Shown in pieces: positions 3,538 through 20,694 of a stretch of DNA of 34,582 nucleotides. The notes under the pieces were generated by a model. That model saw nothing but the letters and a program-made list of their open reading frames with translations. It did not search any database and was not told the origin of the DNA. The stretch's first letter is position 1, and every line of letters starts with the position of its first letter. Source of the stretch: a virus; the IMG/VR virus record IMGVR_UViG_3300036846_001600, positions 1 through 34,582 of that record; one strand, written 5' to 3'. The translations under genes were made by a program, and so were the position numbers.

Positions 3538-3538
3538 C

Positions 3539-4923: not shown

Positions 4924-4924
4924 A

Positions 4925-5863
4925 TTAAATAAAATCCACTTTCTTTTTGACTGACATTTGAACATCAGTTACATTAATTAGCTCCATTATTCCTTTTTGA
5001 AATAATCTTGTTCTAAATCTAGTAAAATCAAGAGCTGAAAACACATTTACCACATTATCACCTATAACTACATTGTAATATTCATCATTAACATCTGTAT
5101 TAAATTGAATAGAAGAAGGAAAGTTTGTAGTATCTAAGTTAAGAACGATAGCCGTATATTCATTGAAATCTTCATCTAAGAACGATAATCCGAATGTTAA
5201 ACCACTTGTATAAGCAGGTGTCATTGTTGCCACAAAACTAAAAACTCCGTCATCTATAAGCCATTTACTAAAGCGGTTAATATCCGTTTCCCCAAAGTAA
5301 GTATAAGATGAGGTTGGCAGATTTGTGTAAGTATAACCTTCAATTGGGCTCTCAGCATTATTTACCCAACGTGATTGACCATAAATTTTACTTGTATTTC
5401 GATTGAAAGGCCCATTCTCTGCTGTCGAAAAGCTTAGTTTTTCAAAGCTATACCATTTTGTTATTGGTTCAAAAGTGATAGTTTCTGAAAAAGTTCCGTT
5501 TTTCCCGTAGCCTTCTGTTTTAGTTTGCTCACTCAGAGCGATATCAGCATATACCGTATAACTCTCTGTAGTGTATTCCAAAGTGACAAATTTAACTGAC
5601 ATCACCGTTTGAATGAAATCAGTTAATAAGTCATAGTTTTCTTTTAAATTTTCCCCAAATGTTTCAACCCCAAAAGTAATATTAGGCTGCGAAATACTGC
5701 TATTACCTTTTACACCGATACCGTTGGCTGACCAAATATTATTAGTGATTGTTATACCAAGATTGGTTGGGGCATAAAATCTAAGTTTACCATTCGTTAC
5801 ATCAAAGATTCTGTTGTCTTGACCATCTAAATTTGTATGTATTTTATACTGTCTTACTGACAT
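4925..5863 (-). CDS. Distal tail protein (Dit-like)
   Basis: A 312-residue protein immediately after the tape measure gene, where Dit normally lies. The N-terminus (VRQYKIHTNLDGQDNRIFDV) and the following belt-like beta region (about 30-150, including KFVTLEYTTESYTVYADIAL and SETITFEPITKWYSFEKL) match the pattern of phage tail family/Dit N-terminal domains. The C-terminal half (about 185-300) is a further beta domain that could be a carbohydrate-binding insertion. It would cap the tail tube and carry the hub and adhesins. ATG overlaps the tape-measure stop (taATG). The role rests mainly on gene order. Confidence 0.72.
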   Translation of the reverse strand: MSVRQYKIHTNLDGQDNRIFDVTNGKLRFYAPTNLGITITNNIWSANGIGVKGNSSISQPNITFGVETFGENLKENYDLLTDFIQTVMSVKFVTLEYTTESYTVYADIALSEQTKTEGYGKNGTFSETITFEPITKWYSFEKLSFSTAENGPFNRNTSKIYGQSRWVNNAESPIEGYTYTNLPTSSYTYFGETDINRFSKWLIDDGVFSFVATMTPAYTSGLTFGLSFLDEDFNEYTAIVLNLDTTNFPSSIQFNTDVNDEYYNVVIGDNVVNVFSALDFTRFRTRLFQKGIMELINVTDVQMSVKKKVDFI

Positions 5864-8800
5864 TATGCCCTCCCTAATTTTTGTAATTTTGTGACTTCTC
5901 TTGCTAATGCTACGATATTTCCATTATCAGCACCAAGTGTGAAGGTGTTGTAAATTCTATTGTCGGCACTAGCGCTATTTTGTGTAATTCCACCGTTTCC
6001 AACTCCAGATAGATTAACATTTGGTAAAGCTTCAACAAGTGAACCTTTAAACATTCCGCTAACAGTTTTAGAAACACCATTAATTGCACCACTAATTTTG
6101 TCAAGCGTTCCTGAGATACCTCCTAAGATGCTATCAATTAAATCCTTAACTCCTCCGAAAGCATCCGCAAAGAAGTCATATACACCACTAAATACACTAG
6201 TAATTGAATCCCATGCGTTTTGAGCAATGCCACCCAACGAATCAAACACATTGCTAACAGCCGTTTTAACCGAGTCAAATACCCCGCTAAACCATGAACC
6301 AACTGCGCTAAACACTCCAGTTATTCCGTTCCATGCGTTACTTGCAAACCCACTAAATGCATTGAAAACATTAGATACGACATTTCTGACAGCATCGAAT
6401 ACTCCAGAGAACCAACCAGAAACTACACCCCAAATGCCTTGAATAGTTCCCCAAACTTGACTAGCTACGTTTGCTATGCTTTGAAAGACTTGACTTGCGA
6501 AATTACCAATAGTTTGAAAAATAGGAGTGAAGAAGTTTTTTATAGCTGTCCAAACACCGTTAATGAAATCTCCCATAGCTTTAATACCGTTCTTAATAGC
6601 TTCAACAACTACATCTATAACCCCTTTGATTGCGTCCCATACTGTTTTAACAACGTTAACAAGTCCATTCCAAATGTTTGTAATACCATCAACAAGTCCT
6701 CTGATACCTGCCAAAATCAATTGGATCACCAAGTTGATGATAGACCAAATTAAGTTCCACAATGATTGGTAAAAGCTTATTAAAGGTTGGAAGAAATTCA
6801 TGATATTTTGAACAACTTGGCTCAAGAACTCGGTTATTGTATTCCAAACATTTGTAACTACTTCTACAATTGAATTCCATAAGTTTGTAAAGAAGTCAGT
6901 GATACCGCTCCATGCATCACTTATACCACCTATTATAGTGCTCCATAAATTAGTGAAGAAGTCAATCATTCCATTCCATGCATCTTGAATACCTTGTACA
7001 ATACCGCTGAACCAGTCTACAAGTCCTTGCCAGATACCTTTAGCTCCTTCTACAGTTGCGTTCCAGATATCAGAGAACCATTTTCCGATACCCTCAAAGA
7101 ATTTAACCACAGATTCCCAAGCTTTTACAAGAAAGTCGGTAAACTGTTTCCAAAGTTTTTTCCCTGTCTTGGTTTGAGTGAAGAAATAAACCAACGCTGC
7201 AACTACTGCAACAATTGCCGCAACTACTATACCCCAGATACCTAAACTCATAGCACCTTTTAGGGCGTTCATAGCACCACCAGCAACATCCATCGCCTTT
7301 TTAAGTTTTATGAAAGCCTCGATACCAGCGATAACACCTTTACCAATTTTAAAAGCCACAAAGCCGGCAGATAAGCCAACAATAGCACCTTTGGATAAGT
7401 CCATAGCTGTTTTACTTTCTGTAAACTTATGAATAATGTCTGAAATTGTCCTTGTAACTCTTGCTATATCCTCTGACAATGTTGTGATGACATCAGATAC
7501 TTGCTCTATCGTGCCCTTGCTATTAGTTGATTGCTTATCTAGTCCAAGAAACGACTTGACTAACTCGAAAACAAATTTTCCGACATCACTAAAAGTCCTT
7601 TTTAAAGTTGCCCATATTTCCAAAAAATTGTCCAGCGCTCCGCTACTCTCTAGCATTTTGAAGAGCTTTTGGAACCAGCCAATAACTTTTTTTATGCTTT
7701 CGCCTATTTTTGGACCCATATCTGCCATACTATCAATAAGACTGCTAATAACAGGAGTTAGAGCTTCAAGGATGGGCAAAATAACATCATTGGAAACAGC
7801 CTCATTGAATGCGTCCCAACTGTCACCAATACTTGAAATAGCTGAACCACCTTTATTTGCCATTTCTTGCATGGCTTTATCAAGCATTTCTGTAGTAACT
7901 GCGCCTTTTTCACTTGCCTCGGCAAAAGAGCCATACTTTTTAAGAGCTGGATTCATTTCCATTACAGTTGATTTAAGAGCAGAACCGAGAGCCGTATTAT
8001 TATCAGTCAACTGGTTCATGTTTTCTGCCGTTACTTTACCACTAGCTGACATCTGCCCATAAGCTTGAGCAACGCCCTTAAGCTGTTCGCCAGTACCACC
8101 AAATTTTTGGTTAGCTCTGGTTAATGCGTCTGTTTTACTTACTGCTGTTTTAGCGTCGTCGCCAAGACCAATAAAGGTAGTTGACAGTTTCAAAGTGTCT
8201 TCACTACTAGCGTTTGTATCTTGAGCAAGCTTTTTCATCTTATCGCTGACAAAATCGAAATCTTTTCCGTTTCCTTTAAATGACATCGTGGACTTCAAAG
8301 CGTTCATAGATTTTTGCGTGTCCATTGCGTCACTTGCCCAGCCTTTAAGACCATTACCTAAAGCATTAGTGATACTTGCACCAATTTGTCTGAAAGCCCC
8401 AACTGCGATTTCTTTAAGACCGTTGAACTTTTGCTTGAATCCGCCAATCTTACTATCAACACCAGATGTATCCATGTCTATTTTGGCTTTAGTTTCCCAC
8501 TTGCCGTTTTTTATTGCATTGTCTACATCTTTTATATCTGCTTCAAGTTGATCCGCTTGAATTGTTGTATTTGCTAAATCTCGTTGTAACTTAGTCCATT
8601 TTGCTTGGCCTTGCGGCGTACTTTTGTCTACATTAGCAATTTCTTGCTTTAATTGTGTAGCTTTATTTTTAGATACCGTAAGCTGTTGCTGTAAATTCTT
8701 TTGCAACTGAGCCATTTTGTCAGTATTTGTAGGGTCAAGAGCTAATGCTTTCTTTAGAGCATTAGCTTCTCCTTTTAACCCTGACATGGCGGTATTAATA

Positions 8801-8871
8801 CCTTTTAGAGAGTTTTCAAACTTGGCTGTATTACCGTAAATCTCTATTTCAAATTTTGCGTTACTAGCCAT
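5863..8871 (-). CDS. Tail tape measure protein (TP901-1 core type)
   Basis: With 1002 residues it is the largest gene and sets tail length. It has an N-terminal coiled coil (about 10-125, K/Q/A-rich), then the TP901 tape-measure core (about 190-345, including KLSTTFIGLGDDAKTAVSK and GEQLKGVAQAYGQMSASGKV), a membrane helix (about 546-567, GIWGIVVAAIVAVVAALVYF), and a long run of degenerate Trp/Phe-rich repeats (about 575-880, motifs such as NAWNGITGVFSAVGSWFSGV). The hydrophobic and Trp-rich part is typical of tape measures that help DNA pass the membrane. All the other open frames across this region are shadows of it. Very confident. Confidence 0.96.
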   Translation of the reverse strand: MASNAKFEIEIYGNTAKFENSLKGINTAMSGLKGEANALKKALALDPTNTDKMAQLQKNLQQQLTVSKNKATQLKQEIANVDKSTPQGQAKWTKLQRDLANTTIQADQLEADIKDVDNAIKNGKWETKAKIDMDTSGVDSKIGGFKQKFNGLKEIAVGAFRQIGASITNALGNGLKGWASDAMDTQKSMNALKSTMSFKGNGKDFDFVSDKMKKLAQDTNASSEDTLKLSTTFIGLGDDAKTAVSKTDALTRANQKFGGTGEQLKGVAQAYGQMSASGKVTAENMNQLTDNNTALGSALKSTVMEMNPALKKYGSFAEASEKGAVTTEMLDKAMQEMANKGGSAISSIGDSWDAFNEAVSNDVILPILEALTPVISSLIDSMADMGPKIGESIKKVIGWFQKLFKMLESSGALDNFLEIWATLKRTFSDVGKFVFELVKSFLGLDKQSTNSKGTIEQVSDVITTLSEDIARVTRTISDIIHKFTESKTAMDLSKGAIVGLSAGFVAFKIGKGVIAGIEAFIKLKKAMDVAGGAMNALKGAMSLGIWGIVVAAIVAVVAALVYFFTQTKTGKKLWKQFTDFLVKAWESVVKFFEGIGKWFSDIWNATVEGAKGIWQGLVDWFSGIVQGIQDAWNGMIDFFTNLWSTIIGGISDAWSGITDFFTNLWNSIVEVVTNVWNTITEFLSQVVQNIMNFFQPLISFYQSLWNLIWSIINLVIQLILAGIRGLVDGITNIWNGLVNVVKTVWDAIKGVIDVVVEAIKNGIKAMGDFINGVWTAIKNFFTPIFQTIGNFASQVFQSIANVASQVWGTIQGIWGVVSGWFSGVFDAVRNVVSNVFNAFSGFASNAWNGITGVFSAVGSWFSGVFDSVKTAVSNVFDSLGGIAQNAWDSITSVFSGVYDFFADAFGGVKDLIDSILGGISGTLDKISGAINGVSKTVSGMFKGSLVEALPNVNLSGVGNGGITQNSASADNRIYNTFTLGADNGNIVALAREVTKLQKLGRA

Positions 8872-9377
8872 TACATGCCCTTTCTTTTACGTTTTCTCTC
8901 TTTTTCTCGTTCCTCTTTTTTCTTTTCTGCGACTTGTTCAACAACTTTATAAATCAACTCAAGTTCCATATCAAGAAATTGATTGAAATCTATTTCGTTG
9001 TCAACTAAAATAACTAATAACTCTAATGTTTTATTAGTTTTAATTGGTTCTTCTTTTTTGCGTAAAAGTGAGCTTGACGAAAAAAAGACTGTGTCAATAT
9101 CCTTTTCCTCACTCGGAAAGATTACTTTACAGAATTCGTTTAATAGCTCTTCAGATTTTGGGAGTTCTAACTCATCCTCTAAGGCACTTTTCATGCCCCC
9201 CTTACAATCTATCCAAAGGAGTAATAATCTATCTATAAAGCTTTCCATATCCTCTGTGAAATCATCAGGAATATAACCAGCCATAAAAGAGCGTTGTAAC
9301 TTAGAAAAATTATCAAGGTCAGTAATGAAGTCTGAACCATTAAGTTCTAGATATTTTATTGCATGTCTTAATATCAT
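8871..9377 (-). CDS. Tail assembly protein, second chaperone gene
   Basis: A 168-residue protein between the gpG-like gene and the tape measure, the place of the T part of lambda-type gpG/gpGT chaperones. It is rich in acidic residues and ends in a very basic tail (KKKEEREKERKRKRKG), which could bind the tape measure. Its ATG is directly preceded by an in-frame TAG, so it cannot be made as an in-frame extension of the gpG-like gene; it must start on its own or by re-initiation. It ends 1 base into the tape measure start. The role is inferred from position. Confidence 0.75.
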   Translation of the reverse strand: MILRHAIKYLELNGSDFITDLDNFSKLQRSFMAGYIPDDFTEDMESFIDRLLLLWIDCKGGMKSALEDELELPKSEELLNEFCKVIFPSEEKDIDTVFFSSSSLLRKKEEPIKTNKTLELLVILVDNEIDFNQFLDMELELIYKVVEQVAEKKKEEREKERKRKRKGM

Positions 9378-9396
9378 CTAAGTTACCAGCTTTCAA

Positions 9397-9672
9397 TTAA
9401 ATTTCTTTTTTCCAGATATCAACGAGTTCTTTTAAACCTTTGCCGTTAGTATCGAATTTGAATGTTTCACGAAATTCTGCAAAGTCAGCTTTTGCACTCG
9501 GTATATTGTCTTGAAACAATGCCAAGTACAATCCATATTGAACAAATTCCATAACGTCAGTGACATCACCACTTTCAGTTTTTGTTGCTGTTTCCATTGC
9601 TTTTTGTTGCTGGAAAAGGTCTTTCCCTGTGATCATTTTAAATTTACGTGCTGTGCTTAATTGTTTAGCCAT
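9397..9672 (-). CDS. Tail assembly chaperone (gpG-like)
   Basis: A 91-residue, mostly helical protein between the major tail protein and the second chaperone gene, exactly where lambda gpG-type chaperones lie. It would keep the tape measure soluble during tail assembly. It begins MAKQLSTARKFKMITGKDLF and ends DIWKKEI. A run of six A lies seven codons from its end, but shifting there in either direction reaches a stop before the next gene. Spacing of 33 bases to the major tail protein supports a shared transcript. Function inferred from order and size. Confidence 0.75.
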   Translation of the reverse strand: MAKQLSTARKFKMITGKDLFQQQKAMETATKTESGDVTDVMEFVQYGLYLALFQDNIPSAKADFAEFRETFKFDTNGKGLKELVDIWKKEI

Positions 9673-9705
9673 TTTGTATATATTCCTTTACTTATTTAAT
9701 GCCTT

Positions 9706-10719
9706 TTAGGCTTTTGTTAATTGCACTGCTGGTTCAGACCAAGCAGAACCTGTGATACTTGAGTTGCCATTAAGGTATTCTGCTTTTGCGATATCGTCAG
9801 ACCCTTGTCCTACACGGTCAAATGCTTGAACATGTAAGTTGATAGTGTCGCCAGTCGTAAGAGTTGGAACATCCGCCGCTTTCAAAGTCCAAGAAGTTGT
9901 TTCTGAATAACCCATGTATTTTAAGTCAGATTCAATTGTTTTGTTTGCATCTCCGTAATGAGTTACGTAAGCTTTGTCTACCTCTGGTTTCCCAGTCCAA
10001 GTGAGAGTGATATCTCCATTTGTTTCAAATTTACCTGTAACTGCCGTAGGAGCGTCTGGAACTACAATCCCACCGGCAAGAACAGTATCTGGCATCATGA
10101 TAAACAATCCACCTTCCATCTTATTAGCGAAATCTTTAGCTTGGTCTCCCCAAATTTCATATTCAATAGAAGGTACTTTTTTACCGTTATTCAGATAAAT
10201 ATCTGAATCTGTTGCTTGTACTGCCAAAGTCCATTGAATAGGATCTACACCATCTACTGAATCTGTTTCAGATTCTTTTGTCGCTTCTGCTGTAGGTGTT
10301 AAATTTGGATAAACGACTACACGCCATCCATCCTCAAATGCACCTGTCAATGTACGTCTACGACCTTTGATTAGATATTGAACACATTTAGTTTTCCAGT
10401 TACCAGTAGGAGACCAACCCAAACCATTTGCAGTTCGTTCTTGTCCAAGCATATCTTCTTTCAATGTTTGGTCAGTTTGAATAAATACCATTTCACCTTG
10501 GAGCAAGGTAGCACCTTTTTTAACTCCGTGGTCTGGGACATCATCAGCTGGAAAGTTAGCAGTCTCTGCCTGGTCTTCCATTGCTCCAACAGATACTAAA
10601 CCAGTTACAATTTTATGATTTGATTCTTCAATTTTACCGTCAGTACCTATGGCAAGGTCAGCCACAATAAGTGCTTCATTCCCCCAGAAAATCTCACGTT
10701 GTGCGTAATTTAATTTCAT
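9706..10719 (-). CDS. Major tail protein with C-terminal Ig/FnIII-like domain
   Basis: A 337-residue tail-tube protein. Residues ~1-215 form the tube domain (for example GDQAKDFANKMEGGLF at its end). Residues ~219-337 are an Ig/FnIII-like domain starting VVPDAPTAVTGKF, with DITLTWTGKPEVDKAYVTHY, GDTINLHVQAFD and GSAWSEPAVQLTK. The same domain is encoded in the +1 frame after the major capsid gene. Here it is fused in frame, so every subunit should carry it on the tail surface, where such domains are thought to bind carbohydrate weakly. It lies after four connector genes and before the chaperone genes. The major-tail call is strong from order, size and domain. Confidence 0.88.
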   Translation of the reverse strand: MKLNYAQREIFWGNEALIVADLAIGTDGKIEESNHKIVTGLVSVGAMEDQAETANFPADDVPDHGVKKGATLLQGEMVFIQTDQTLKEDMLGQERTANGLGWSPTGNWKTKCVQYLIKGRRRTLTGAFEDGWRVVVYPNLTPTAEATKESETDSVDGVDPIQWTLAVQATDSDIYLNNGKKVPSIEYEIWGDQAKDFANKMEGGLFIMMPDTVLAGGIVVPDAPTAVTGKFETNGDITLTWTGKPEVDKAYVTHYGDANKTIESDLKYMGYSETTSWTLKAADVPTLTTGDTINLHVQAFDRVGQGSDDIAKAEYLNGNSSITGSAWSEPAVQLTKA

Positions 10720-10731
10720 TTTGTTTTTCCT

Positions 10732-11100
10732 TTACAGTTTTAAGCTTTCGGCATATTTAGTGCCTTTTTTTAGTGTGCTTTTTACTTCAGACATCCCTTT
10801 TTTAGTTCTTAAGAAATACATCCCATGATAAGAACCATCTCCATAGCTTGCTCTAGTACCATCTGAAACTATTTTTCTATCACCATTAGCAGTAACTTTA
10901 ATGTTGTTTGCTAACTTACCAGTATTCTGGTGATTTGAATAAGTGTAGTTATGTCCATGACTTCGGATGATTCTTCTTCTACGTGATGCAGCTAATGCCC
11001 TAAGTTTGAACTCAGCTTCAAAAAAATCTGCCATTCTATCAGTCACTTGAGATCCAAATTCTTTTGCTACAGCATTAGAATCTATTAAGTCGTTTGCCAC
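10732..11100 (-). CDS. Head-tail joining / neck protein (HK97 gp10-like)
   Basis: A 122-residue protein starting with GTG at 11100 after a G-rich stretch (GTGGGGG), overlapping the previous gene by 16 bases. The basic segment LAASRRRRIIRSHGHNYTYS and the C-terminal KKGMSEVKSTLKKGTKYAE are characteristic of small HK97-gp10-type connector proteins. It is the fourth gene after the capsid and the last before the major tail protein, which fits a neck or tail-completion role. No catalytic motif is visible. Confidence 0.72.
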   Translation of the reverse strand: MANDLIDSNAVAKEFGSQVTDRMADFFEAEFKLRALAASRRRRIIRSHGHNYTYSNHQNTGKLANNIKVTANGDRKIVSDGTRASYGDGSYHGMYFLRTKKGMSEVKSTLKKGTKYAESLKL

Positions 11101-11429
11101 GGTTCGCCCCCACTTCCTACAGGAATATAAACTGTCGTTTGATAATTATACAGGTGGCTGTTTTCAGACCAATTCACCATATTTAAACCTGATTGTGAGC
11201 AATTGGCCAAGACATTCACTAGTGGACTATCAACATTTTCTACTGATAGAATCAAAGCATAATAATATCCAATAGCGAAACTATCATTATCTACCTTCAT
11301 AATCTTGCTGTCAGTGACTGAGATATAAAGCGTGTCAGCTACAATAGTGTCTTTAACTCCGAAAACAATATCTTTAAAAGGGAAAGTTTTTAAATGGTTA
11401 TAAAAATCAATATATGAATCAAATTCCAT
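11085..11429 (-). CDS. Head-tail connector / tail terminator-like protein
   Basis: A 114-residue protein in the third position after the capsid gene. It has an N-terminal helix (EFDSYIDFYNHLKTFPF) followed by several beta strands, typical of the small tail-terminator or gp9/gp10-type connector fold. It overlaps both neighbours (11 bases with the upstream gene, 16 with the next), as expected in a tightly coupled connector cluster. I assign it from order and size rather than from a specific motif, so whether it is the terminator or another neck protein is open. Confidence 0.68.
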   Translation of the reverse strand: MEFDSYIDFYNHLKTFPFKDIVFGVKDTIVADTLYISVTDSKIMKVDNDSFAIGYYYALILSVENVDSPLVNVLANCSQSGLNMVNWSENSHLYNYQTTVYIPVGSGGEPWQTT

Positions 11430-11736
11430 TGCTTACTACTCCTTCTAAAGTCATTTCATTATTTTTGGGATTTCTAGTCCATGTAGTAACCTTAAATTTT
11501 TCGTTGTTCTCATCTAAGAAATACTCAAAATCTAACGAGTTTTCATATTCACCTATACTATCCAAAATATAACGGTTTTGTTTTCCTAGTCCTTGCATCG
11601 AAAATTCATCGAGCCTTGACTGATATATACGTTCTTTTTTAGCTGGTAATAAATAAGGTGTTTCGATAGTAGATTCAGCACCGTTTGGCTTTTTTATAGT
11701 TTCCTTAACCAATAGTGTTACTTGCGTTAGAATCAT
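11419..11736 (-). CDS. Head closure / stopper protein (head-tail adaptor family)
   Basis: The reading frame opens with GTG-ATG. The ATG at 11736 has the better spacing to GGAGG (6 bases) and overlaps the upstream stop by one base, giving 105 residues. It resembles SPP1 gp16/HK97-type head closure proteins: a strand-rich fold with conserved-looking pieces EYFLDENNEKFKVTTWTRNP. It is second after the capsid, the usual stopper position, and would seal the connector after packaging. Confidence 0.72.
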   Translation of the reverse strand: MILTQVTLLVKETIKKPNGAESTIETPYLLPAKKERIYQSRLDEFSMQGLGKQNRYILDSIGEYENSLDFEYFLDENNEKFKVTTWTRNPKNNEMTLEGVVSNGI

Positions 11737-11999
11737 CACACACCTCCGTAAAACATTGACTCTATAAGACTTTCAAGCCTTAGCTCTTCTGCCTTTCGCC
11801 ATTGTTCAGAGGGTTCAGAAATGTTATATAAACGACAGTAACCAGCCACATAGGATTGAACCAATGGGCTAGTTTCGTCATTTTTAATACTATTCTTTGT
11901 AAGATGCGCTAGAGCTGTCAACCGTAGCAACTCTAACTTTTCATCATACACAGTAACAGCTAAAGGAATACCACAATAATTTTTAATATAATCTATCAT
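11736..11999 (-). CDS. Head-tail adaptor (gp6-like connector)
   Basis: An 87-residue helical protein directly after the capsid and its frameshift extension. Its pattern, short helices with YVAGYCRLYN in the middle and a C-terminal helix EELRLESLIESMF, fits the gp6/gp15-like adaptor family that forms the ring under the portal. It begins 12 bases after the stop of the capsid extension and ends within the start of the stopper gene. Confident for a connector, moderately for the specific family. Confidence 0.74.
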   Translation of the reverse strand: MIDYIKNYCGIPLAVTVYDEKLELLRLTALAHLTKNSIKNDETSPLVQSYVAGYCRLYNISEPSEQWRKAEELRLESLIESMFYGGV

Positions 12000-12011
12000 G
12001 GCCTACCCTTT

Positions 12012-12362
12012 CTATTTTGTCATCGTCATTTCAACCACATCTGACCAAGCAGAGCCTAAATGATTTACATTCAAATCTTGCGCTTTTTCTGTTTCAGTGT
12101 TACCTGTTCCAGTTACATGGAAAGCTTGCACCCAGAAGTAAAGTTTATCTCCAGGATTATGTGTTTGAAGTTTCGATGGAGTGAATCTATAATTAGGTGT
12201 TTCGCTATAGAACATGTAAATAGCGTTTTTTGGATCCGAATCATTAGCAGGAGAGCAATGAATAACATATGCTTTGTCTTTATCATCTCCCGTCCAAGCT
12301 AAATCTACTGCTCCAGTACTATCTTCAGTGCCTGTAACCCCTGTAGGCTTCAGGGGAGCATT
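12012..12362 (-). CDS. Ig/FnIII-like C-terminal extension of the major capsid protein, reached by +1 frameshift
   Basis: Codons from AAT (12362-12360) to the stop at 12012 encode 116 residues starting NAPLKPTGVTG and ending SAWSDVVEMTMTK, with no stop. The frame has no plausible start of its own: the first ATG (12215) is in the middle of the domain and there is no ribosome site. The domain is clearly homologous to the C-terminus of the major tail protein (shared pieces include PxAP, AWTG/TWTG, KAYV, YSET, VQAF and GSAWS). If the ribosome skips the T of the capsid stop, a 506-residue capsid variant is made. The pattern is as described for Listeria phage PSA. Production in vivo is inferred. Confidence 0.8.
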   Translation of the reverse strand, partial: NAPLKPTGVTGTEDSTGAVDLAWTGDDKDKAYVIHCSPANDSDPKNAIYMFYSETPNYRFTPSKLQTHNPGDKLYFWVQAFHVTGTGNTETEKAQDLNVNHLGSAWSDVVEMTMTK

Positions 12363-12366
12363 AGGG
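12330..12366 (-). promoter_or_regulatory. Programmed +1 frameshift signal: CCC-TAA shifty stop plus H-type pseudoknot
   Basis: On the minus strand the capsid gene ends GCA CCC TAA. Slippage of the Pro-tRNA from CCC to CCT puts the ribosome in the extension frame. Six bases after CCCT begins stem 1, CCCCTG (12356-12351) pairing with CAGGGG (12343-12338). The 7-base loop contains GCCT (12348-12345), which can pair with AGGC (12333-12330), giving an H-type pseudoknot with loops of 2, 1 and 4 bases. Slow termination at TAA, a Pro slip codon and a well-spaced pseudoknot are all established stimulators. Confidence 0.75.
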
Positions 12367-13533
12367 TGCAGGTAATGTAATTACAGCACCAGCATTAAGT
12401 TTTTCAGTATGCCCAGCTGAAAGAGATTCAACCAAAATGATGTTTTCATTATTTTTCCATTCAAATGCGTCAACTTTTGTCAAGTCTTGCATATCGACGT
12501 GATATGCGTCTTGTACAAGGACAGTTGGTTTGATAGATTTCTTGCCAGTATAAACGATAAGTTCATCTACACCGACCTCGCTAGCGATTTCAGCGTCATC
12601 ATTTTTGATACGAACATGAGCATTAGCTGGCAAAGCACGTAATTCATTAAGCAACGCACGGCGTTGTTCAACGGTAACAATGAGGTAACGTGTTCCAGCA
12701 GTACGGCGTACAAAGTCCACAGCATCTTCTACAGCATCAGAGAAAGCAGGATCTCCAGCAGTTGCTGTAATTTTTTTGATTTTTTTTGCATCAGGTTCGA
12801 GAGCAACAGAGATGAAACCATTTGTTCCTGTAGCAGTTCCTTCAAGCAAAGCAAGGTCAACAACTTTATTTACAATGGCTTGTGTCAATTCAGCAACTAC
12901 AAGAGCATAAAGTTCGTTATAATCAACGTTCAAACGTTTAATGTATTCAGAAATCGCTTGAAGTTTGTACACGATTTGAGGTTTAAACGCTGACGTGTCA
13001 AGAGTAGCTGCTTGCATAGTTTTGTCAGCACCAATTGTATGCACTTGTGCTTCATCGTCAGAACTAAAAAGCGAGCTGACAATCATTGCCCCAATGTTAG
13101 TTACACGGAAAACTTTGAATACTGGGTTAGTATCAGTTAAAGAAGTCTGGATTGATTCAACAAGTTTGCGCGGCAACTGAAGAGTGCTGTCAGTAATTGT
13201 AATATCATTTTCAGCAAGCTTTGCATTCCATGCGTTCATAACATCTTTTTTACCGTTGTTTTGCAATACGTCAAAGAATGCTGATACAGAGTTGTTTGTT
13301 TCTAAAAAGTTCAATTGTTTAGTTCCTTTCGCTTTTGCTAGTTCGAAGTCTTTAAGAGAGTTTTCAATTTTGATGATTTCGATTGCGTTTTCTGAAATTT
13401 CTTTGTCTAGTTTATTGAATTCTTCCAAACCGTTTTCGACTGGTGTTTCAGCAATTTTAGCTTTCAATCCGTTGTTGATTTCAACAAGTTCAGCCAATCG
13501 ATTTTGGGCGTCAATTTTGTCTTTTTTATTCAT
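12361..13533 (-). CDS. Major capsid protein (HK97 fold)
   Basis: A 390-residue protein from the ATG at 13533. The open frame reaches 13575, but that codon is TTG and lies inside the protease gene, while 13533 overlaps the protease stop (TATGAATAA). Residues ~1-95 are a charged coiled coil (the delta/scaffold domain, removed by the protease in this family). The rest has the HK97 pattern with conserved-looking pieces such as AISEYIKRLNVDYNELY, DAVDFVRRTAGTRYLIV and an Ala/Gly-rich end. The gene ends in CCC-TAA, which appears to be a frameshift site giving a minor longer form. It follows portal and protease, as in HK97-like head clusters. Confidence 0.92.
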   Translation of the reverse strand: MNKKDKIDAQNRLAELVEINNGLKAKIAETPVENGLEEFNKLDKEISENAIEIIKIENSLKDFELAKAKGTKQLNFLETNNSVSAFFDVLQNNGKKDVMNAWNAKLAENDITITDSTLQLPRKLVESIQTSLTDTNPVFKVFRVTNIGAMIVSSLFSSDDEAQVHTIGADKTMQAATLDTSAFKPQIVYKLQAISEYIKRLNVDYNELYALVVAELTQAIVNKVVDLALLEGTATGTNGFISVALEPDAKKIKKITATAGDPAFSDAVEDAVDFVRRTAGTRYLIVTVEQRRALLNELRALPANAHVRIKNDDAEIASEVGVDELIVYTGKKSIKPTVLVQDAYHVDMQDLTKVDAFEWKNNENIILVESLSAGHTEKLNAGAVITLPAP

Positions 13534-14095
13534 ATTTCTTTTTAATCTCCTCAATTTCTTTATATTGATTTTCAATTGCTGTTTTTTTGTCTTGCTCAGC
13601 TTTTTGCTTTGCTAGAAAAGCGTGACGTTCTTTCAACAATTCATCACTCATAGAGTTTTCGATAAATTTTGCGTTTGGGTCAGCTGGTACTGAAACGATT
13701 GATACCTCGTTGAATACCGCATTATTAACTACGATAGAGCCATCTGCATTAAAATCATAGTCCGTCAAGTAGTATGCAATTGATACGCTACTAAATGCTC
13801 CATTTTCGACAGCTTGTTTAATATTTTCGTTTCCATCATAGATTTTAAAATCAGTAATGTACGTATTAGTTACTGGGTCATATTCTGTGTGACTATCTCC
13901 AATAACATCAACTGCACTTTTTCCATGGCTATATAGCAACGGGTAGCGTTCACGGTCAAATTTAATACTATTAGGCATTAAAATCATTCCGTTACGGTTA
14001 ACTACACCAACCTCAGAACCCACAGCTACAAAAGACGTTGTACCGTCATCTTGTGCCTTGACTTGAATGTCATAGGCGTTGTTAATTAGTTTCAT
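13526..14095 (-). CDS. Prohead protease (HK97 family)
   Basis: A 189-residue protein between portal and capsid. The family's catalytic histidine is in LLYSHGKS (H57) and the serine in AFSSVSIAYY (S105), and FNEVSIVSVPADP (129-141) matches the conserved segment after the active site. It should trim the capsid delta domain during maturation and then itself. The C-terminal ~40 residues are a charged helix (KERHAFLAKQKAEQDKK). Its ATG lies in the portal's 3' end (14-base overlap), and its stop overlaps the capsid ATG, so the three are coupled. Confidence 0.9.
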   Translation of the reverse strand: MKLINNAYDIQVKAQDDGTTSFVAVGSEVGVVNRNGMILMPNSIKFDRERYPLLYSHGKSAVDVIGDSHTEYDPVTNTYITDFKIYDGNENIKQAVENGAFSSVSIAYYLTDYDFNADGSIVVNNAVFNEVSIVSVPADPNAKFIENSMSDELLKERHAFLAKQKAEQDKKTAIENQYKEIEEIKKKYE

Positions 14096-15218
14096 TCTGT
14101 CCTTTCTCCGAACTGTTTTTATCGGTATTTATTAAATCAGCGAGGTTATTAATAGCAACAGCATTTTTATTAGTGAAATAGATATCTCCACCCTCAATAG
14201 GTTGTTCACCCATTTTGATTTTCATTTCATTAACCGTAAACAAAGGCGCTTGTGTGTTTTCGTGGTACAAGTCAATCAATTCTTTAAGGGTTGCGAACTT
14301 GAATAACTGATTATCAATAATAATGCGTTGATAGTATAAGTTTTGAGCCGTAACACGCCGTGTATTAGCTCCTAGAAGCTTATATGTTAATTCTTTTTCC
14401 AATTGAACTAACAAGGGTATGATAGTAGAATTGTAGAAATACATTTGTTCTTCTTGGCTCGCAGTCCCCAATAGAATGCTTTCGCTCATAAAGAATGCAC
14501 TTAGTAACTCTGACTTTATCAGTTCAATTTCTTCTTTGTTTAGTACGGAATAATCTTTTTTGAGTTCGATTATTTCGCCTTTAGAGTCAATCGGAGCAAT
14601 GCCGTTGAAAGTAGAACCACTTTGCATTGATTCAATTGTGGCCATTGCTTTTTCTTTAAATTCATCAACAAAATCAAAGTCTAATTGAGCATTTACTTTG
14701 TATAAAGCTCTAATTTTTCCTTGGTCCATTTTACTTGCAATTGATGATAAAGCATTGTCCAATAAACTAGTATCTTGGTTGGTAAAGAAAGGGCTGATTA
14801 AGTTTACTGTTTCGTCATAATCAATAATTTTGTCTGTTTCATCTAAGAAAGTTAAATCTAGAAGCACCCCATTAGGGTCAAAAAGTGGCATAAGGGTAAT
14901 ATGCTTTTGTGTCATCATCTTTTTAACCACTTTAGACCAAAATTCCATACTATTTTTTTGCCCTTTAGGCGACCAATTTAGCACTTCATCAATATCAGAA
15001 CCAGCCATACTAATTAAAGTGTCAGCACCTTTTTCATTCTTTTTGTATTTGACATGATTAAATGAAACTTTACTTATTTCACTTGCTATTTTATTTTGAA
15101 CGTTGATAGCGAAAGAACTTGTTAAGTTGTAAGTTGCATCCTCCCAACCTCTAGCACGTTGCGTATTTTTGTTGAGTTTACCTCGTGATAGTTGTAAAAT
15201 TCTACCAAACAAATTCAA
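14082..15218 (-). CDS. Portal protein (HK97-type)
   Basis: A 378-residue portal that would form the dodecameric DNA channel. It starts with TTG at 15218 behind a strong ribosome site (AGGAGG, 7 bases away); no ATG occurs for about 70 codons, so TTG is the real start. The portal pattern is visible: helix-rich N-terminus, the segment ELKKDYSVLNKEEIELIKSE about two-thirds through, and the C-terminal clip-like piece FTVNEMKIKMGEQPIEGGD, which is very typical of phage portals. It sits between HNH/terminase and protease. Confidence 0.92.
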   Translation of the reverse strand: MNLFGRILQLSRGKLNKNTQRARGWEDATYNLTSSFAINVQNKIASEISKVSFNHVKYKKNEKGADTLISMAGSDIDEVLNWSPKGQKNSMEFWSKVVKKMMTQKHITLMPLFDPNGVLLDLTFLDETDKIIDYDETVNLISPFFTNQDTSLLDNALSSIASKMDQGKIRALYKVNAQLDFDFVDEFKEKAMATIESMQSGSTFNGIAPIDSKGEIIELKKDYSVLNKEEIELIKSELLSAFFMSESILLGTASQEEQMYFYNSTIIPLLVQLEKELTYKLLGANTRRVTAQNLYYQRIIIDNQLFKFATLKELIDLYHENTQAPLFTVNEMKIKMGEQPIEGGDIYFTNKNAVAINNLADLINTDKNSSEKGQNETN

Positions 15219-15233
15219 TTCAGTTCCTCCTTT

Positions 15234-15518
15234 CTAGAAAAATAATTTGCCTTTTCCTTGCTTATCACGTCTTGTTTTTTTCTTGTGACATTTAAAACAT
15301 AAGAGCTGGCAATTCTCAGGATTCAAAGCTATATTGGGGTCATCTACGTTCTCCCATGTCAACTCGATGATATGGTCAACTTCATAGCGTTTTGCATTAT
15401 ATGAACCACATATTCTACAAGTCATTTCGTCACGGTTACGGACAAAATCACGTACGGCTATCCATTTTTTGTCATTGTAGAAGCCAGATTCTCTAATTGT
15501 TGGAGCATTATAATTCAT
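15234..15518 (-). CDS. HNH homing-type endonuclease (packaging-associated)
   Basis: A 94-residue HNH nuclease: [20 protein letters not shown] contains the first zinc CxxC and the catalytic DH, and [17 protein letters not shown] has the second CxxC and the final histidine. In HK97-like cos phages, an HNH protein of this size works with the terminase to nick or cut the cos site. Here it lies between the large terminase and the portal instead of before the small terminase, and it overlaps the terminase end by 11 bases. Confidence 0.9.
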
Positions 15519-17133
15519 TATCTTGTACCAATACTTGTAAACTCATTGTTGTTGCTAAAGTAGGGTCGATTTTGTCTTTTCGTAGTATCTTTTTATACAT
15601 CAAGTCTCCACTGTAACCGATTCTGACGGCCGTATTATTGAAAGCCCAGCGCAACAAAGGTTGTTTAAATATTAAAGTCTTATTCATCATTTTAGATTTC
15701 ATAAGTTCTATATAATCGTTCATTGCAAACCCTTGTCTAATCGGTGTTTGATTATCTCCATCCTTATCAAAGAAATAACGCTCAATCAATGTTTCAAGAT
15801 GTTCATATTTAGCGGGGTCATAACCAATCCTCTTAAATCTTGCACCAGTTTTCTTTTTAAACTCAACCATGTAAGTAATGAGGTCATTGCCTTTAATGAC
15901 TTCACCTTCTAAAAGTCTTAGCGAACCATCATCAATAAACTCAGTCCAGATATCTTTTTGGTCTTGATCCAACTCTTCATATTTCATCCTTAAGGCAAAG
16001 CTTTGATTATAGGTGTATGTTTTACCATCGACATTACAAGTGAATGCTATAGAAGTTAAATCTCCTACAAGTGACAGGTCAATGCCAACATAAGTGTAAG
16101 CTCTGTTAAATACGGATAAGTCAAAGTCCTGTAATTCGGTGTCTTTTGCGGTGAAGTAATAGGCGGTATCTTGCATCGATAAGCCCATTGAGAAGGCCAA
16201 GAACTTTATCTGCAGCGCTGGGTCTCCTTTTGCAAGCTCATACTCCATCTCGACAGCTTCCATACTTGGTACATTTCCAATTAGTGGCAAAGCCATAGAC
16301 CAATTTTTCTTATTCTTGACTTGCTCAACATTTTCAAGCCGATATAGAACATCAAATGAGCGGTCATTGTTAAACTCTGCTTCACTTGTAAATCGTTCCA
16401 ACATCTTGTCAAATAATCCACCACGTTTTGTGCCACCAGAAGTAATATAAATGCTTTGCCAGTTGGCTTGTTTCATCCGAGAACCTTTATTAACTGACTC
16501 GGTTATGTCTTCACCATAGGTATGGACTTCATCAAAGACATTAAGTGAAGATTTACCACCTTGAGCACGTAAAGTGTCATTTGTCTGTTTTTTAAACGTT
16601 GTTCCATACGGTTCAAACTTCAATCCTTGCTTAGTGCTTCTAAAAAGATTTGATTCTGCATAAGTCTTAATTAATGGACTGGCTTGTGTTTGATTTCGAA
16701 CTTGTTCAAATACATGTCGAGCTTGTTCATTATCATAAGCAATCACTAAAGCTTCACCACCGTGAGCACGACTCATAATCATCCAATGAAGGACTCTAGG
16801 GCTAACAAAAGTACTTTTCCCAGTTCCACGGCCCATCTCTCCAAAAAATTCATTTGTCAATTGGACTTGTTTTCCCTTAGCGTCAATCATGTCATAGCCA
16901 AGCATCAACTCAACCCACCATTTTTGAGTAGGTAGCAGTTTCAACGGTTCTAATGAGCCATTAGTTAGTAAAAAATTATCTTCCACCCAGTCAATGTATT
17001 GTTGTACTCGGTCAAAACGATAGATATATTTACTGTGGATACGAATCTGTTTTTTAATCGTTCGTCGGATATCTTTATTGATTAGTTTTCCTGTTTCTTT
17101 ATTCCAATCAAGCATTTTGTTTAAGTAATACAT
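15508..17133 (-). CDS. terL: Terminase large subunit
   Basis: A 541-residue packaging motor. The ATPase half has Walker [11 protein letters not shown] (about 99-108) and Walker B LNVFDE (197-202), with [10 protein letters not shown] (~230-239) as coupling motif. The nuclease half has the first acidic residue in [11 protein letters not shown] (D352) and a later one in [10 protein letters not shown] (D439). The layout matches HK97-like, cos-cleaving terminases. It follows the small subunit by 8 bases, and the HNH gene overlaps its end. Confidence 0.95.
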
Positions 17134-17141
17134 TAGATCTC

Positions 17142-17678
17142 CTAAAAGTCGGTAGGGGCTTTGATACCACTCGGCGTTTCATACTTGTCTAAGTCATAGC
17201 GCCTTGTTTCTTCAATAGCTTTCCGTAACTCTCCAGCTCCAATCTCAACCTCTTTAACTTTCGCAAAGTTAACTGGGTCGTATAAAGTAGGTTTCCCAGC
17301 TTTTGCCACAAAGATACTTGCATTAGTATCAATGTCGTACTCTTTGGTTTTGACTTTGTATCCCTTAATTGTTTTACCGTCAGCTTCATAAATCGTTTCA
17401 GTTTCTGTCAGTGTCCGTCTGTTCATTTTTGCTTGCAATGCACTTTCAGCAAGAGATAACATATTTGACCGAGCAATAGTCCGAGCTTCGTCATAAGCTT
17501 CTGCATTAGCATCACGCCACTTATTAAAAGTGAAAGCACTTGAATGCATTGCTTTATATATTTCATGGTCAGAAACACCATCAGCTACTTTTTCAAGTAT
17601 TTGCTGTGTAATTTTCGGCTTCATCATGTCATCAAACGCACTAGGACGCCCACGACTCTTTATTGGATACTTGGTCAA
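17142..17678 (-). CDS. terS: Terminase small subunit
   Basis: A 178-residue protein starting with TTG at 17678, with AAGGAGG 6 bases upstream; no earlier ATG fits. The N-terminal part (about 25-75) is a helix-turn-helix-like DNA-binding domain (TQQILEKVADGVSDHEIYKA then FTFNKWRDANAEAYDEAR), as in phage small terminases that recognise cos/pac. The C-terminal ~70 residues probably contact the large subunit. It is the first late gene after the 600-bp non-coding region that probably holds cos and the late promoter. Confidence 0.88.
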   Translation of the reverse strand: MTKYPIKSRGRPSAFDDMMKPKITQQILEKVADGVSDHEIYKAMHSSAFTFNKWRDANAEAYDEARTIARSNMLSLAESALQAKMNRRTLTETETIYEADGKTIKGYKVKTKEYDIDTNASIFVAKAGKPTLYDPVNFAKVKEVEIGAGELRKAIEETRRYDLDKYETPSGIKAPTDF

Positions 17679-17904
17679 GTTTTACCTCCTTTCACAACCT
17701 TTACATTTTAAATATTGCTAGAAAGCTCTCGTTTACCTTCTAAGAACGTAAAATTATATGTATATAACTTTTATCGTTTTTAGTTATTTTTCCTGCGGGA
17801 ATAGAAAATATCAGTTCCTGTGAGATTCTGATAGACTAAATGAGATATATTATGATAAATAAAGTTAAAATAATTTCCAGCAGAATTTTGAGAGGTTTTT
17901 AAAG

Positions 17905-17925
17905 AGGATTCCTTTGTGCAGAAAA
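17905..17925. other. Candidate cos site (cohesive-end region)
   Basis: Packaging by a cos-type terminase plus HNH nuclease predicts a cos site in the gene-free region upstream of the small terminase. The minus strand here reads TGCACAAAGGAATCC. The core CACAAAGG resembles what I recall for cohesive ends of lactococcal P335 phages such as r1t, but I cannot check this. No exact cut position is claimed; the region is simply the best candidate. Confidence 0.35.
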
Positions 17926-17961
17926 TTTCCTTTAAAATTTCAAAAGACCGGGGGCTATCTC

Positions 17962-18040
17962 AAAAAAATATTTTTTTATTTTTAAAAATTTTTTTGAATT
18001 TATTTTTATTTTTTTAGAAAATATTTTTTATTTTTATTTT
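17962..18040. other. Extreme A/T tract with phased A-runs
   Basis: Seventy-nine bases of which only two are G or C. Runs of 4-7 A or T alternate with short interruptions at roughly helical spacing, so strong intrinsic bending is expected. It lies between the tRNA-like element and the candidate cos, so it could help terminase bind or serve as a UP-like element for late transcription. Nothing codes here. Confidence 0.5.
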
Positions 18041-18043
18041 CAA

Positions 18044-18115
18044 TAGCAAGCCAAGGAGTCGAACCTTGTTCTGTTTCTTAATGATGTCTTTAACCTACTG
18101 ACATAAGCACTTGCT
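18044..18115 (-). ncRNA. tRNA-like element (degenerate phage tRNA)
   Basis: A 72-base minus-strand element with a 7-bp acceptor helix (AGCAAGT with GCTTGCT plus A), a perfect T arm (CAAGG, loop TTCGACT, CCTTG) and a D-arm-like hairpin (ATGTC, loop AGTAGGTTAAA, GACAT). The centre (CATTAAGAAACAGAA) is too short and cannot form an anticodon stem, and position 8 is not T. It therefore looks like a decayed tRNA or a tRNA mimic rather than a working tRNA. CCA is not encoded. Confidence 0.35.
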
Positions 18116-18246
18116 ACTATAAACTCATAGCGCTATTCACAATGGTTGCTCGCTTGGTTTATATATTAATTATCGCTTGAATCAAGGTGTTTAATCCGTC
18201 AACTTTCCGTCTTTAATCAGTCACCAATCGGTCACGATATCAGCAC

Positions 18247-18270
18247 AAAAAAAGCCGCAATTAAGCGACT
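18247..18270 (-). terminator. Rho-independent terminator after the late activator gene
   Basis: On the minus strand, AGTCGC, loop TTAATT, GCGGCT, followed by seven T. The stem has 6 bp with one G-T pair. It lies 9 bases after the stop of the activator gene and should end the early/middle transcript, separating it from the late operon. Confidence 0.75.
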
Positions 18271-18279
18271 TAATATTCT

Positions 18280-18633
18280 TTATAGTCCAGACCATCTTGA
18301 TATCTCAGACTTTAGTTCAGTATATCTTCTATAGATAGTTGATTCACTGAAGTGTATCTTTTGACCTATTGCCCATTGCGGTAGGCCTTCCCTCCACCTC
18401 AACTCACATACTCTCTTAGCTTCTGGGTTGCCACTATACCAAACTTCTATCTGGGCTTTATGATACTCAAGTTCAAGTAATACTTTATCTTGTTTTAACT
18501 TTTGATTTAATGAATCTTCATTTAAACCATTGAGCATAGATTCATAAGTGATCTGATTGACTCTTGCTTTTATCTGTCTATCAATACCTCCAGTCACATA
18601 TGATTCTATAATTTCATCTAACTTATCAGCCAT
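18280..18633 (-). CDS. Late-gene transcription activator (DUF722 / ArpU-RinA-like)
   Basis: A 117-residue protein at the end of the early operon. The C-terminal half has a clear sigma-like helix-turn-helix (RVCELRWREGLPQWAIGQKI followed by SESTIYRRYTELKSEISRW). The family (DUF722 in lactococcal phages, related to ArpU and RinA) activates the late promoter between itself and the small terminase, as the position here fits exactly. It is preceded by a charged helix (about 30-60). It is followed by a terminator, then the 600-bp non-coding region. The class is well supported; the binding site is not identified. Confidence 0.85.
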   Translation of the reverse strand: MADKLDEIIESYVTGGIDRQIKARVNQITYESMLNGLNEDSLNQKLKQDKVLLELEYHKAQIEVWYSGNPEAKRVCELRWREGLPQWAIGQKIHFSESTIYRRYTELKSEISRWSGL

Positions 18634-18680
18634 TTTCAGTCTCCCTTTATGGTATAATATAGTTAGAATTTCTTTCAGTT

Positions 18681-18705
18681 AAGCCCATTGCCGTGGGCTT
18701 TTTTA
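18681..18705 (+). terminator. Hairpin with T-run, plus-strand orientation
   Basis: AAGCCCA, loop TTGCCG, TGGGCTT followed by TTTT. As a terminator it works in the plus direction only, although all neighbouring genes read minus. A similar hairpin lies at 29128-29154. It may block antisense transcription or be an RNA element in the leader of the activator gene. Confidence 0.5.
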
Positions 18706-18715
18706 TATATAGTAC

Positions 18716-18847
18716 TCAATCCAAAGAGCTGACCCTAGTTATCTTCAACAGTCCAGTAATGGCTAAAACCATTTCTGGGTTTTCTTTTGTTTCTTCAAGT
18801 TGTAGTACTTCAATTGAAAATTTTGTAATTGCTTCTGCTAATGTCAT
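18716..18847 (-). CDS. Small phage protein of 43 residues, unknown function
   Basis: An ATG at 18847 preceded by AAAAGAGAACAAC opens a 43-residue frame: MTLAEAITKFSIEVLQLEE, then TKENPEMVLAITGLLKITR and SSLD. It is mostly a single amphipathic helix with no membrane segment. It fills an otherwise empty space between its neighbours and reads the same way. I do not recognise it; typical of tiny lactococcal phage early genes. Confidence 0.55.
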   Translation of the reverse strand: MTLAEAITKFSIEVLQLEETKENPEMVLAITGLLKITRVSSLD

Positions 18848-18886
18848 GTTGTTCTCTTTTCTAGCGGACTACCGTATTTAATTTAT

Positions 18887-19135
18887 TTACAACCCCTCGT
18901 AAAATTCTGGTGGATTACGTCTTTCTGGCATTTTAATCTTATCAAGTTCTCCGTTTTCATAATGGATCATATTCATGATGTGTAATTTAGTTAAGTCTTT
19001 ATTCCATTCTTCGTAGTAATTGGCATGATGTCTTGTAAAGCCAGATTCACCTTTTACGTACCAATGTTTAAGTTGATCTAAGTTGCTTTCCAATAATCTA
19101 ATAATAAATCTTTGAGCTTTTTGATAATCTACCAT
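18887..19135 (-). CDS. Small early protein, unknown function
   Basis: An 82-residue protein with many aromatic and basic residues (HWYVKGESGFTRHHANYYEE). The N-terminal helix (QKAQRFIIRLLESNLDQLKH) could mediate oligomerisation. It starts where the previous gene ends (stop at 19136) and is part of the block of short early genes. I recognise no domain. Confidence 0.68.
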   Translation of the reverse strand: MVDYQKAQRFIIRLLESNLDQLKHWYVKGESGFTRHHANYYEEWNKDLTKLHIMNMIHYENGELDKIKMPERRNPPEFYEGL

Positions 19136-19537
19136 TTATACTCCTCCTATTAGTGAAGTATCACTACTTAGATTGTCTTCTAAGTCAACCAAATCTATCA
19201 ATACTTGTTCAGTTATATTTTCTTTCAACATAAATTTTTCTGCATCTTCTTCATTAAAAAAGTATTTTTCTTCTAATGCTGCTTTACCGATATAAAACCC
19301 TTTATGTTTATAAATAACTTTAAATTTATATAACTCGCTAATTTTTTTATTTAATGCTAATACTTTAAATCTTAAATCTCTAAATTCTTTTGGTTCTACT
19401 TTCTCTTCTTTTATGGAGTTAATCTGTTCTTTTAACCTATTTAATTCATGAAACAGCTCAATATATCTAAATGATAAATAAGCAAATATGCATAGTACTA
19501 GTAAGTCCATAAGTGCCAAACCGATTATATTTTCCAT
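19136..19537 (-). CDS. Membrane-anchored coiled-coil protein, unknown function
   Basis: The start is the ATG at 19537 (GGAGG 9 bases upstream), which lies 7 codons inside a frame that opens with TTG at 19558. This gives 133 residues. Residues ~4-24 are a membrane helix (IIGLALMDLLVLCIFAYLSF). Then comes a charged coiled coil (about 30-70) and a soluble domain containing KVIYKHKGFYIGKAALEEKY. A membrane-tethered early protein could act in superinfection exclusion or host takeover, but there is no specific match. Confidence 0.65.
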   Translation of the reverse strand: MENIIGLALMDLLVLCIFAYLSFRYIELFHELNRLKEQINSIKEEKVEPKEFRDLRFKVLALNKKISELYKFKVIYKHKGFYIGKAALEEKYFFNEEDAEKFMLKENITEQVLIDLVDLEDNLSSDTSLIGGV

Positions 19538-19538
19538 T

Positions 19539-20051: not shown

Positions 20052-20378
20052 TTATATCTTCCCTCCGTCTGTTCCATAAACAATGATATTAATATGATTT
20101 TCACCAAGTCTATAAAATAATTTGGCAATATCAAACTTAGAAAGTATTAATTCATCTATATATAATTTGTCAAATCCTCTAATTCTCATTTCAATAATAA
20201 TATTTTCAATGTCTAATACTGAGTAAGAAATAACTCTATTTTGTAATGACTCTGGGAATAGACGTTGTTTAATTGCAAAATTAGGAACTAAGCATAGTGC
20301 CAGCAAATCTTTTTCCATCAACTCAATAACTTTAGTAGTTTTTCCGCTACCTCTGCTTTGATTATTTATTTTTATCAT
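20052..20378 (-). CDS. Tiny P-loop protein (Walker A and B) of unknown role
   Basis: A 108-residue protein with a clear Walker A near its N-terminus (NNQSRGSGKTTKVIELM, about 5-21) and a Walker B-like strand (GFDKLYIDELIL, about 68-80). The spacing is that of a minimal NTPase core, and no helicase or kinase extension is present. It is about half the size of usual P-loop enzymes, so it could be a remnant or a regulatory ATPase. It lies just downstream (in transcription) of one copy of the 91-bp repeat. Confidence 0.7.
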   Translation of the reverse strand: MIKINNQSRGSGKTTKVIELMEKDLLALCLVPNFAIKQRLFPESLQNRVISYSVLDIENIIIEMRIRGFDKLYIDELILSKFDIAKLFYRLGENHINIIVYGTDGGKI

Positions 20379-20401
20379 TTTTCATTCTCTTTCTTTAATT
20401 A

Positions 20402-20492: not shown

Positions 20493-20507
20493 ACTATTTT
20501 TTTGCGC

Positions 20508-20687: not shown

Positions 20688-20694
20688 CTCCACC

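Follow-up and report, generated by a model that had tools for sequence, protein, structure and literature searches.

A predicted CCC-stop frameshift cassette that would add a fibronectin-III-like domain to a 936-type phage capsid protein, and its recurrence on unrelated capsid and tail tube genes

Ig-like domains of phages are promiscuous and are often expressed through frameshifting. One review has suggested that the frame in which such domains land is random and that frameshifting then allows their expression (PMC5009743). In gene 17.1 of SPP1, a +1 slip from the rare CCC to CCU within CCCUAA yields an FN3 extension, at a ratio of 3:1 (PMC6316719); this FN3 is dispensable, and a contact with cell-wall carbohydrate has been proposed for it (PMC8718954). 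In 936 phages, a +1 shift at the shifty stop CCC.UAG gives MTP-TpeX, as supported by Western blot and immunogold, and carbohydrate binding has been predicted for the TpeX domain (PMC4759559). The cps and tsh genes of Listeria phage PSA are capsid and tail genes with a +1 shift at CCC, and gene 10B of T3/T7 and the capsid gene of Lactobacillus phage A2 each give a frameshifted minor form with a C-terminal extension, which is Ig-like in T3 and A2 (PMC5009743). Both CCC-stop +1 decoding and Ig extensions are therefore already known, from SPP1 gp17.1*, PSA tsh and 936 MTP-TpeX.

The DNA analysed here, hereafter the window, is a 34,582-base virus record. Matches to the 936 group, at ~71%, cover its virion genes, and matches to temperate P335-type Lactococcus phages (r1t, Tuc2009, bIL285), at ~88%, its early half; the 936-like virion genes occupy positions 1-17700, and positions 17600-34582 hold an integrase and replication module that is P335-like. 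Phages of the 936 group are known to be lytic, and from its sequence the window phage looks like a temperate relative of that group. The capsid protein shares ~62% identity with those of the 936 group (Pfam Phage_capsid E 2.5e-4; PHROG phrog_1393 4.9e-159), and the head genes of the window follow the order terminase, portal, capsid, matching PLG-II and sk1 and thereby the head module of the 936 group. The features discussed below are collected in Table 1.

Table 1. Positions in the window of the capsid gene, the candidate recoding signal, the extension and associated features.
Feature	Positions	Strand	Description
Major capsid protein gene	13533-12361	minus	390 codons, HK97-type, 936/Skunavirus kind, phrog_1393
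Slip codon CCC (Pro)	12366-12364	minus	+1 re-pairing with CCT possible
Zero-frame stop TAA	12363-12361	minus	in the A site (shifty stop); TAA, TAG or TGA in homologous cassettes
Probable stimulatory hairpin	12356-12338	minus	CCCCTG 12356-12351, loop AAGCCTA 12350-12344, CAGGGG 12343-12338
Stem 2 of proposed pseudoknot	GCCT 12348-12345 / AGGC 12333-12330	minus	bases present; function unsupported
+1-frame extension	12362-12015, stop TAG 12014-12012	minus	116 codons plus stop; fibronectin-III-like (FnIII) domain
Next gene	11736..11999	minus	start ATGATAGATTATATTAAA; in 936-type phages closely after the capsid stop
Homologous FnIII domain, tail tube protein C-terminus	9709-10056 (gene 10719-9706)	minus	in-frame fusion

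The capsid gene reads TTA CCT GCA CCC TAA at its 3' end, and in the +1 frame the sequence after a slip would continue as CCT AAT GCT CCC CTG AAG CCT ACA GGG GTT. The preliminary description of this DNA had placed a capsid end at CCC-TAA, followed by a 116-codon open +1 frame; its coordinates are right, on the minus strand. CCC is a rare codon (9 of the 151 Pro codons in 22 window genes counted) and occurs in the capsid gene once only, at its stop, where the following U-initial stop permits the P-site tRNA-Pro to re-pair on CCU, an arrangement kept in relatives. The computed products are a short form of 390 residues (42.9 kDa) and a long form of 506 residues (55.7 kDa); the two lengths agree with those first proposed, but the mass of ~54 kDa given for the long form was too low. 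The predicted peptide spanning the junction between capsid and extension is LNAGAVITLPAPNAPLKPTGVTGTEDSTGAVDLAWTGDDK. Stop readthrough was rejected as an alternative, because the ribosome would remain in the zero frame, which holds many stops. Further downstream, the bases at the start of the next gene are common to the window and 936 phages (L058 ...GGATAAAACGGAGGGAATAAATGATAGATTATATTAAAG, window ...AAATAGAAAGGGTAGGCCATGATAGATTATATTAAA), and since this start matches, the FnIII unit is an insertion between two adjoining genes.

Over the extension, the remaining two frames contain 9 and 14 stops, and the comparison with locus L042 (dN 0.30, dS 1.51, dN/dS ~0.2) indicates purifying selection on the +1 frame. 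An AlphaFold2 model of the extension, built with 25 aligned window and locus sequences, reached a pLDDT of 96.3 and a pTM of 0.88, and its Foldseek matches are FnIII domains in PDB and viral libraries, such as 1k85 (TMt 0.74) and 7y8h (TMt 0.75). The model thus points to an FnIII-type Ig fold, in keeping with the Ig-like domain originally suggested for this frame. The Pfam fn3 match lies below the curated cut-off (E 0.042; 14.5 bits versus 25), and because its sequence is divergent and sub-threshold in Pfam, the extension is classed as FnIII-like by fold and not as a member of Pfam fn3. A search with Pfam alone would not have revealed the domain (E 0.04). The tail tube protein of the phage ends in a homologous FnIII domain, ~40% identical to the capsid extension; this tail copy is accompanied by neither slip site nor hairpin and serves as an internal control. 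As a separate observation, the two FnIII copies within a phage, on capsid and tail, have endings in common (window 9709-10056; L132:2501-2839): the L090/L132 phage, for example, has KARYLHDG.FTGSAWS in both, and such likeness may reflect exchange between the two copies.

A survey of the capsid family covered ~85 loci, in which nearly all 936 phages end the gene with TCA-TAA or GCA-TAA and carry no extension. A +1 frame longer than 60 codons was present in five loci from four distinct phages, namely the window, L090, PLG-II and PLgW-1 (two records); all five have a CCC-stop, against none of the ~80 others. In L090 the capsid protein is 47% identical to that of the window, and the hairpin is retained with a compensatory base change. 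In the Lactococcus garvieae phages PLG-II (CCC-TAG) and PLgW-1 (CCC-TAA), what the +1 frame encodes is a Big_2 domain (Pfam E 1.8e-15 and 3e-18). A related capsid gene at L088:4130-4290 ends ACA CCC CAA TAA; it has the hairpin CCCCTCTTAAGGGG, and its +1 tail of 49 codons is HeH-like in appearance, as in PSA cps. When the junction is compared in relatives, L090 keeps CCC-TAA, hairpin and FnIII frame together, and L042 carries the unit on an unrelated capsid gene; comparative evidence of this kind supports the original proposal that slippage of tRNA-Pro from CCC to CCT at the stop would extend the capsid protein by an Ig/FnIII domain.

In a different reading, the FnIII frame is a gene in its own right, and ribosomes either initiate at a start codon belonging to it or re-initiate once they have terminated on the capsid gene; annotators have indeed placed separate starts in or next to the upstream gene in PLG-II, PLgW-1 and an E. 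faecium plasmid. In PLG-II and PLgW-1 (L002:5174, L003:5174) it is the Big_2 frame that is annotated in this way, in PLgW-1 as 'major tail protein'. The window, however, has no start codon that fits the whole domain: as first noted from the sequence, the extension lacks a usable start, its first ATG (12215) falling well inside the domain. In L119, L124 and L126, moreover, the +1 frame opens only two codons ahead of the domain, which is too late for an independent start. Finally, a separate gene would need no CCC, yet this codon is conserved in 37 FnIII sites. A separate gene is accordingly a very improbable reading.

The window hairpin has a 6-bp stem that starts 7 nt after CCC. Its stability of -12.4 kcal/mol compares with a mean of -5.8 for synonymous recodings, none of 500 being as stable; most sites behave like the window in this test, and three in-frame FnIII domains show no such excess. 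In all 22 distinct hairpin-bearing sites the structure is 19 nt long and lies 7 nt after CCC, 99.2% of the cells in the stem alignment are paired, with compensatory changes present, and the covariation score was equalled by none of 500 shuffles. The column pair 15-25 is AU in 17, GC in three and UA in two of the 22 distinct sequences, with no exception. Column 15 is the middle base of an amino-acid-changing codon (CAG, CGG, CTG), and its partner, column 25, falls in most cases on the third, silent position of a Thr codon (ACT, ACC, ACA), so that the coupling is not explained by the protein. Some ~6 of 28 distinct sites (L139, L141, L146, L151, L152, L154) have a weak hairpin or none and still keep the CCC-stop, which means that the hairpin cannot be essential everywhere; in the comparative data it probably acts as the stimulator, with CCC-stop as the core.

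The preliminary description had gone further and proposed that an H-type pseudoknot stimulates the shift. Its stem 1 (CCCCTG/CAGGGG) stands, on the conservation, covariation and recoding results just given, but its stem 2 does not. In the window, pairing of GCCT with AGGC across stem 1 is possible, and pseudoknots do stimulate some shifts, PSA cps having been described with one (PMC5009743). The 4 bp found in the window, however, are reached by 12% of composition shuffles (P 0.12), and the relatives offer no consistent counterpart, with 3-4 weak pairs at most and none in several; even a 3-bp match is absent from L042 and five more of the 22 hairpin-bearing sites, the rest having mostly 3 bp, at chance level. 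Because stem 2 is within chance and has no counterpart in relatives, the pseudoknot is not supported and is an unlikely stimulator, and a simple hairpin probably fills that role.

The unit is found far beyond the capsid family. A protein search with the window FnIII identified L042, in which a phrog_10 capsid gene ends with CCC-TAA and a 63%-identical FnIII follows in the +1 frame. An exact DNA pattern derived from the window and L090 (CCCTAATGCTCCCC N8-18 GGGG) matched 11 stretches, nine of them cassettes (ten sites, two in L099); the other two, L096 and L102, are chance matches and were set aside. Protein motifs inside FnIII, which are blind to the signal, gave 45 loci, and further sites came from searching whole genomes of the order that contains Lactococcus fujiensis and of the family of one match there. 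Altogether, FnIII follows a CCC-stop in the +1 frame at 37 sites, most of them found by the domain-internal motifs and not by the signal. The proteins ahead of the cassette belong to at least eight PHROGs and two folds (tail tube phrog_820, 238, 88, 117 and 885; capsid phrog_10, 544 and 1393), and two of the carriers, L099 and the L124 contig, have the unit behind both a capsid gene and a tail gene. Carriers with a known host are an E. faecium plasmid record and Enterococcus phages; in the phage collection the FnIII family occurs in five records only, all from Enterococcus phages. A scan of the genome collection with a two-sequence FnIII alignment gave no matches, and one with a capsid alignment returned only capsids without the cassette.

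This distribution bears on the notion that the locus is a broken gene, that is, a former in-frame FnIII fusion put out of frame by a one-base indel, whether real or a sequencing error. Such a fusion would have a precedent in the tail proteins of the same phages, which carry FnIII in frame. An identical one-base offset at CCC-stop is nevertheless found at 37 sites, in unrelated genes and on independent contigs; furthermore, the frame is under selection and the hairpin covaries. A broken gene is thus barely credible as an explanation.

The left edge of the unit could be located by comparing copies on unrelated genes. The DNA of L120 (phrog_885) and L124 (phrog_238) shows no difference from -3 to +29, across the signal, and 92% identity in the domain, while their upstream 120 nt are 53% identical, random pairs giving 50%. 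Identity sets in sharply at ACA|CCC, and the same edge is seen in L116/L119 and others. As the identity between unrelated genes begins at the slip site, the recoding signal moves with the domain. The FnIII tree points the same way, with 16 carrier changes needed (minimum 11) and well-supported mixed clades: window and L042 (100/99), which spans two different capsid families, L097 and L155 (99/95), and L120, L124 and three phrog_820 sites (100/100). On this comparative evidence, signal and FnIII domain are one portable cassette, distributed across at least eight unrelated capsid and tail PHROG families.

It has alternatively been suggested that Ig domains landed out of frame by chance, with a shift signal evolving later at each place (PMC5009743). 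The wider family does contain every arrangement that this would produce, in frame (window tail, L132, L006), apparently -1 (L147, L157) and +1 (the rest). Against it, in this FnIII family the slip codon and stop, and at most sites the hairpin, are common to genes of unrelated kinds that become alike right from the slip site, which leaves chance landing distinctly improbable. Arrival of the domain together with its signal is the preferred reading. Slip codon, stop, hairpin and display domain would accordingly form a mobile module whose left breakpoint lies at the slip site, stackable into graded one-, two- and three-part products, and we regard this wider picture as likely.

Stacking is suggested by tandem sites. 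A second CCC-TAA ends the FnIII in L120/L149, L124/L153 and L151 (L120:2497, 2840; L124:2497, 2840; L151, minus strand, 1491, 1837), with another +1 frame after it, 212, 90 or 87 codons long, and a second site is present at L150:1834 too. Tandem shifts would give three nested products from one gene. In another variant (L106-L109, L143, L145, L150), the signal reads ACA (or ACG) CCC (AGC or TCA) TAA G CCCCAG; the stop stands one codon later, the 7-nt spacing from CCC to the stem is unchanged, and CCC could re-pair on CCA or CCU. The displaced-stop signal at L106:2490, L143:2490 and L150:1490 resembles that of PSA cps. The same FnIII is joined to a tail protein in L147 (~2490) by an apparent -1 site, C CCA AAA, and the same apparent -1 site occurs with a Big_2-like domain in the capsid gene of an E. 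faecium phage-plasmid (L157, ~770). Among close relatives of one tail cassette, the slip codon has been lost in L134-L137 (CAC-TAA) and L138 (TCC-TAA), at ~2490-2500, and in the two of them that were checked, L135 and L138, the FnIII frame remains open. Since some close relatives have lost CCC, the extension is dispensable, and L134-L138 are natural knock-outs that could be used as controls.

Taken together, we consider it highly probable that one gene gives two capsid forms through a +1 slip at CCC-stop, the minor form displaying FnIII, and that the element responsible is a portable cassette. The anatomy, conservation, covariation, frame selection, portability and left breakpoint in this explanation are read from the sequences, and from them we infer slippage in vivo, its rate, virion incorporation and a glycan-binding role. 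In the proposed mechanism, the majority of ribosomes would end at TAA and produce the 390-residue protein. A minority would pause with peptidyl-tRNA-Pro on the rare CCC, where the stop is slowly read and a GC-rich hairpin lies 7 nt downstream; these would slip +1 from CCC to CCU, read 116 further codons and add FnIII. Slow decoding at a rare CCC, re-pairing on CCU and stimulation by the hairpin form the most likely mechanism in view of the close SPP1 and mtp-tpeX parallels. The 506-residue form would then enter the capsid as a minority with FnIII on the surface, where, by analogy, it probably binds host or environmental glycans loosely. Many capsid and tail tube genes that are unrelated to one another would have received the same unit (ACA|CCC-stop, hairpin, FnIII and its own stop) at their 3' end. 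As the cassette carries its own recoding signal, the recipient would keep its normal form and gain a minor displayed form in one step.

Such an arrangement, in which the recipient retains a normal end and a minority of copies displays the domain, would be a low-risk way of decorating a virion, the cassette being unlikely to wreck assembly on landing. It also offers a testable explanation of why Ig domains and frameshifting go together, namely that the shift signal accompanies the domain, as well as a search pattern for more cassettes and a natural part for domain display at a fixed ratio. A literature search that covered the primary papers (Fraser 2006, Zimmer 2003, Auzat 2008) through later work citing them found neither a portable cassette of slip site, stop, hairpin and domain nor tandem shifts giving three nested products, and an earlier mention of either in those papers is possible.

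Compared with the described systems, the T3/T7 10B and A2 capsid extensions differ from the window in depending on a -1 shift and other signals. PLG-II and PLgW-1 (Uwajimavirus) share with it a related capsid protein (56-57%) and a +1 Ig domain behind CCC-TAG or CCC-TAA, but the domain is Big_2, there is no GC hairpin and the extensions are annotated as separate genes. PSA, initially cited as a known case, does shift +1 at CCC in its capsid and tail genes; its tsh has CCC_UGA followed by AACTCCCCTTG. For cps the parallel is partial only, with CCC_UCC and therefore no A-site stop, a described pseudoknot and a short HeH-like, non-Ig extension instead of FnIII. The 936 MTP-TpeX system has the CCC-stop +1 shift within the same virion family, and a possible hairpin (GCCC-GAC-GGGC) lies at the same spacing in mtp-tpeX, exceeding synonymous recodings in some members only; it differs in concerning a tail protein, in that TpeX falls outside the FnIII cluster and in that the 936 capsid gene has no extension. 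SPP1 gp17.1*, compared here by its published description, likewise combines a +1 shift at the stop of CCCUAA with a C-terminal FN3 on a major virion protein (PMC6316719), this being a tail tube protein and not a capsid protein. SPP1 gp17.1* and 936 MTP-TpeX are thus closer proven parallels to the window than PSA cps.
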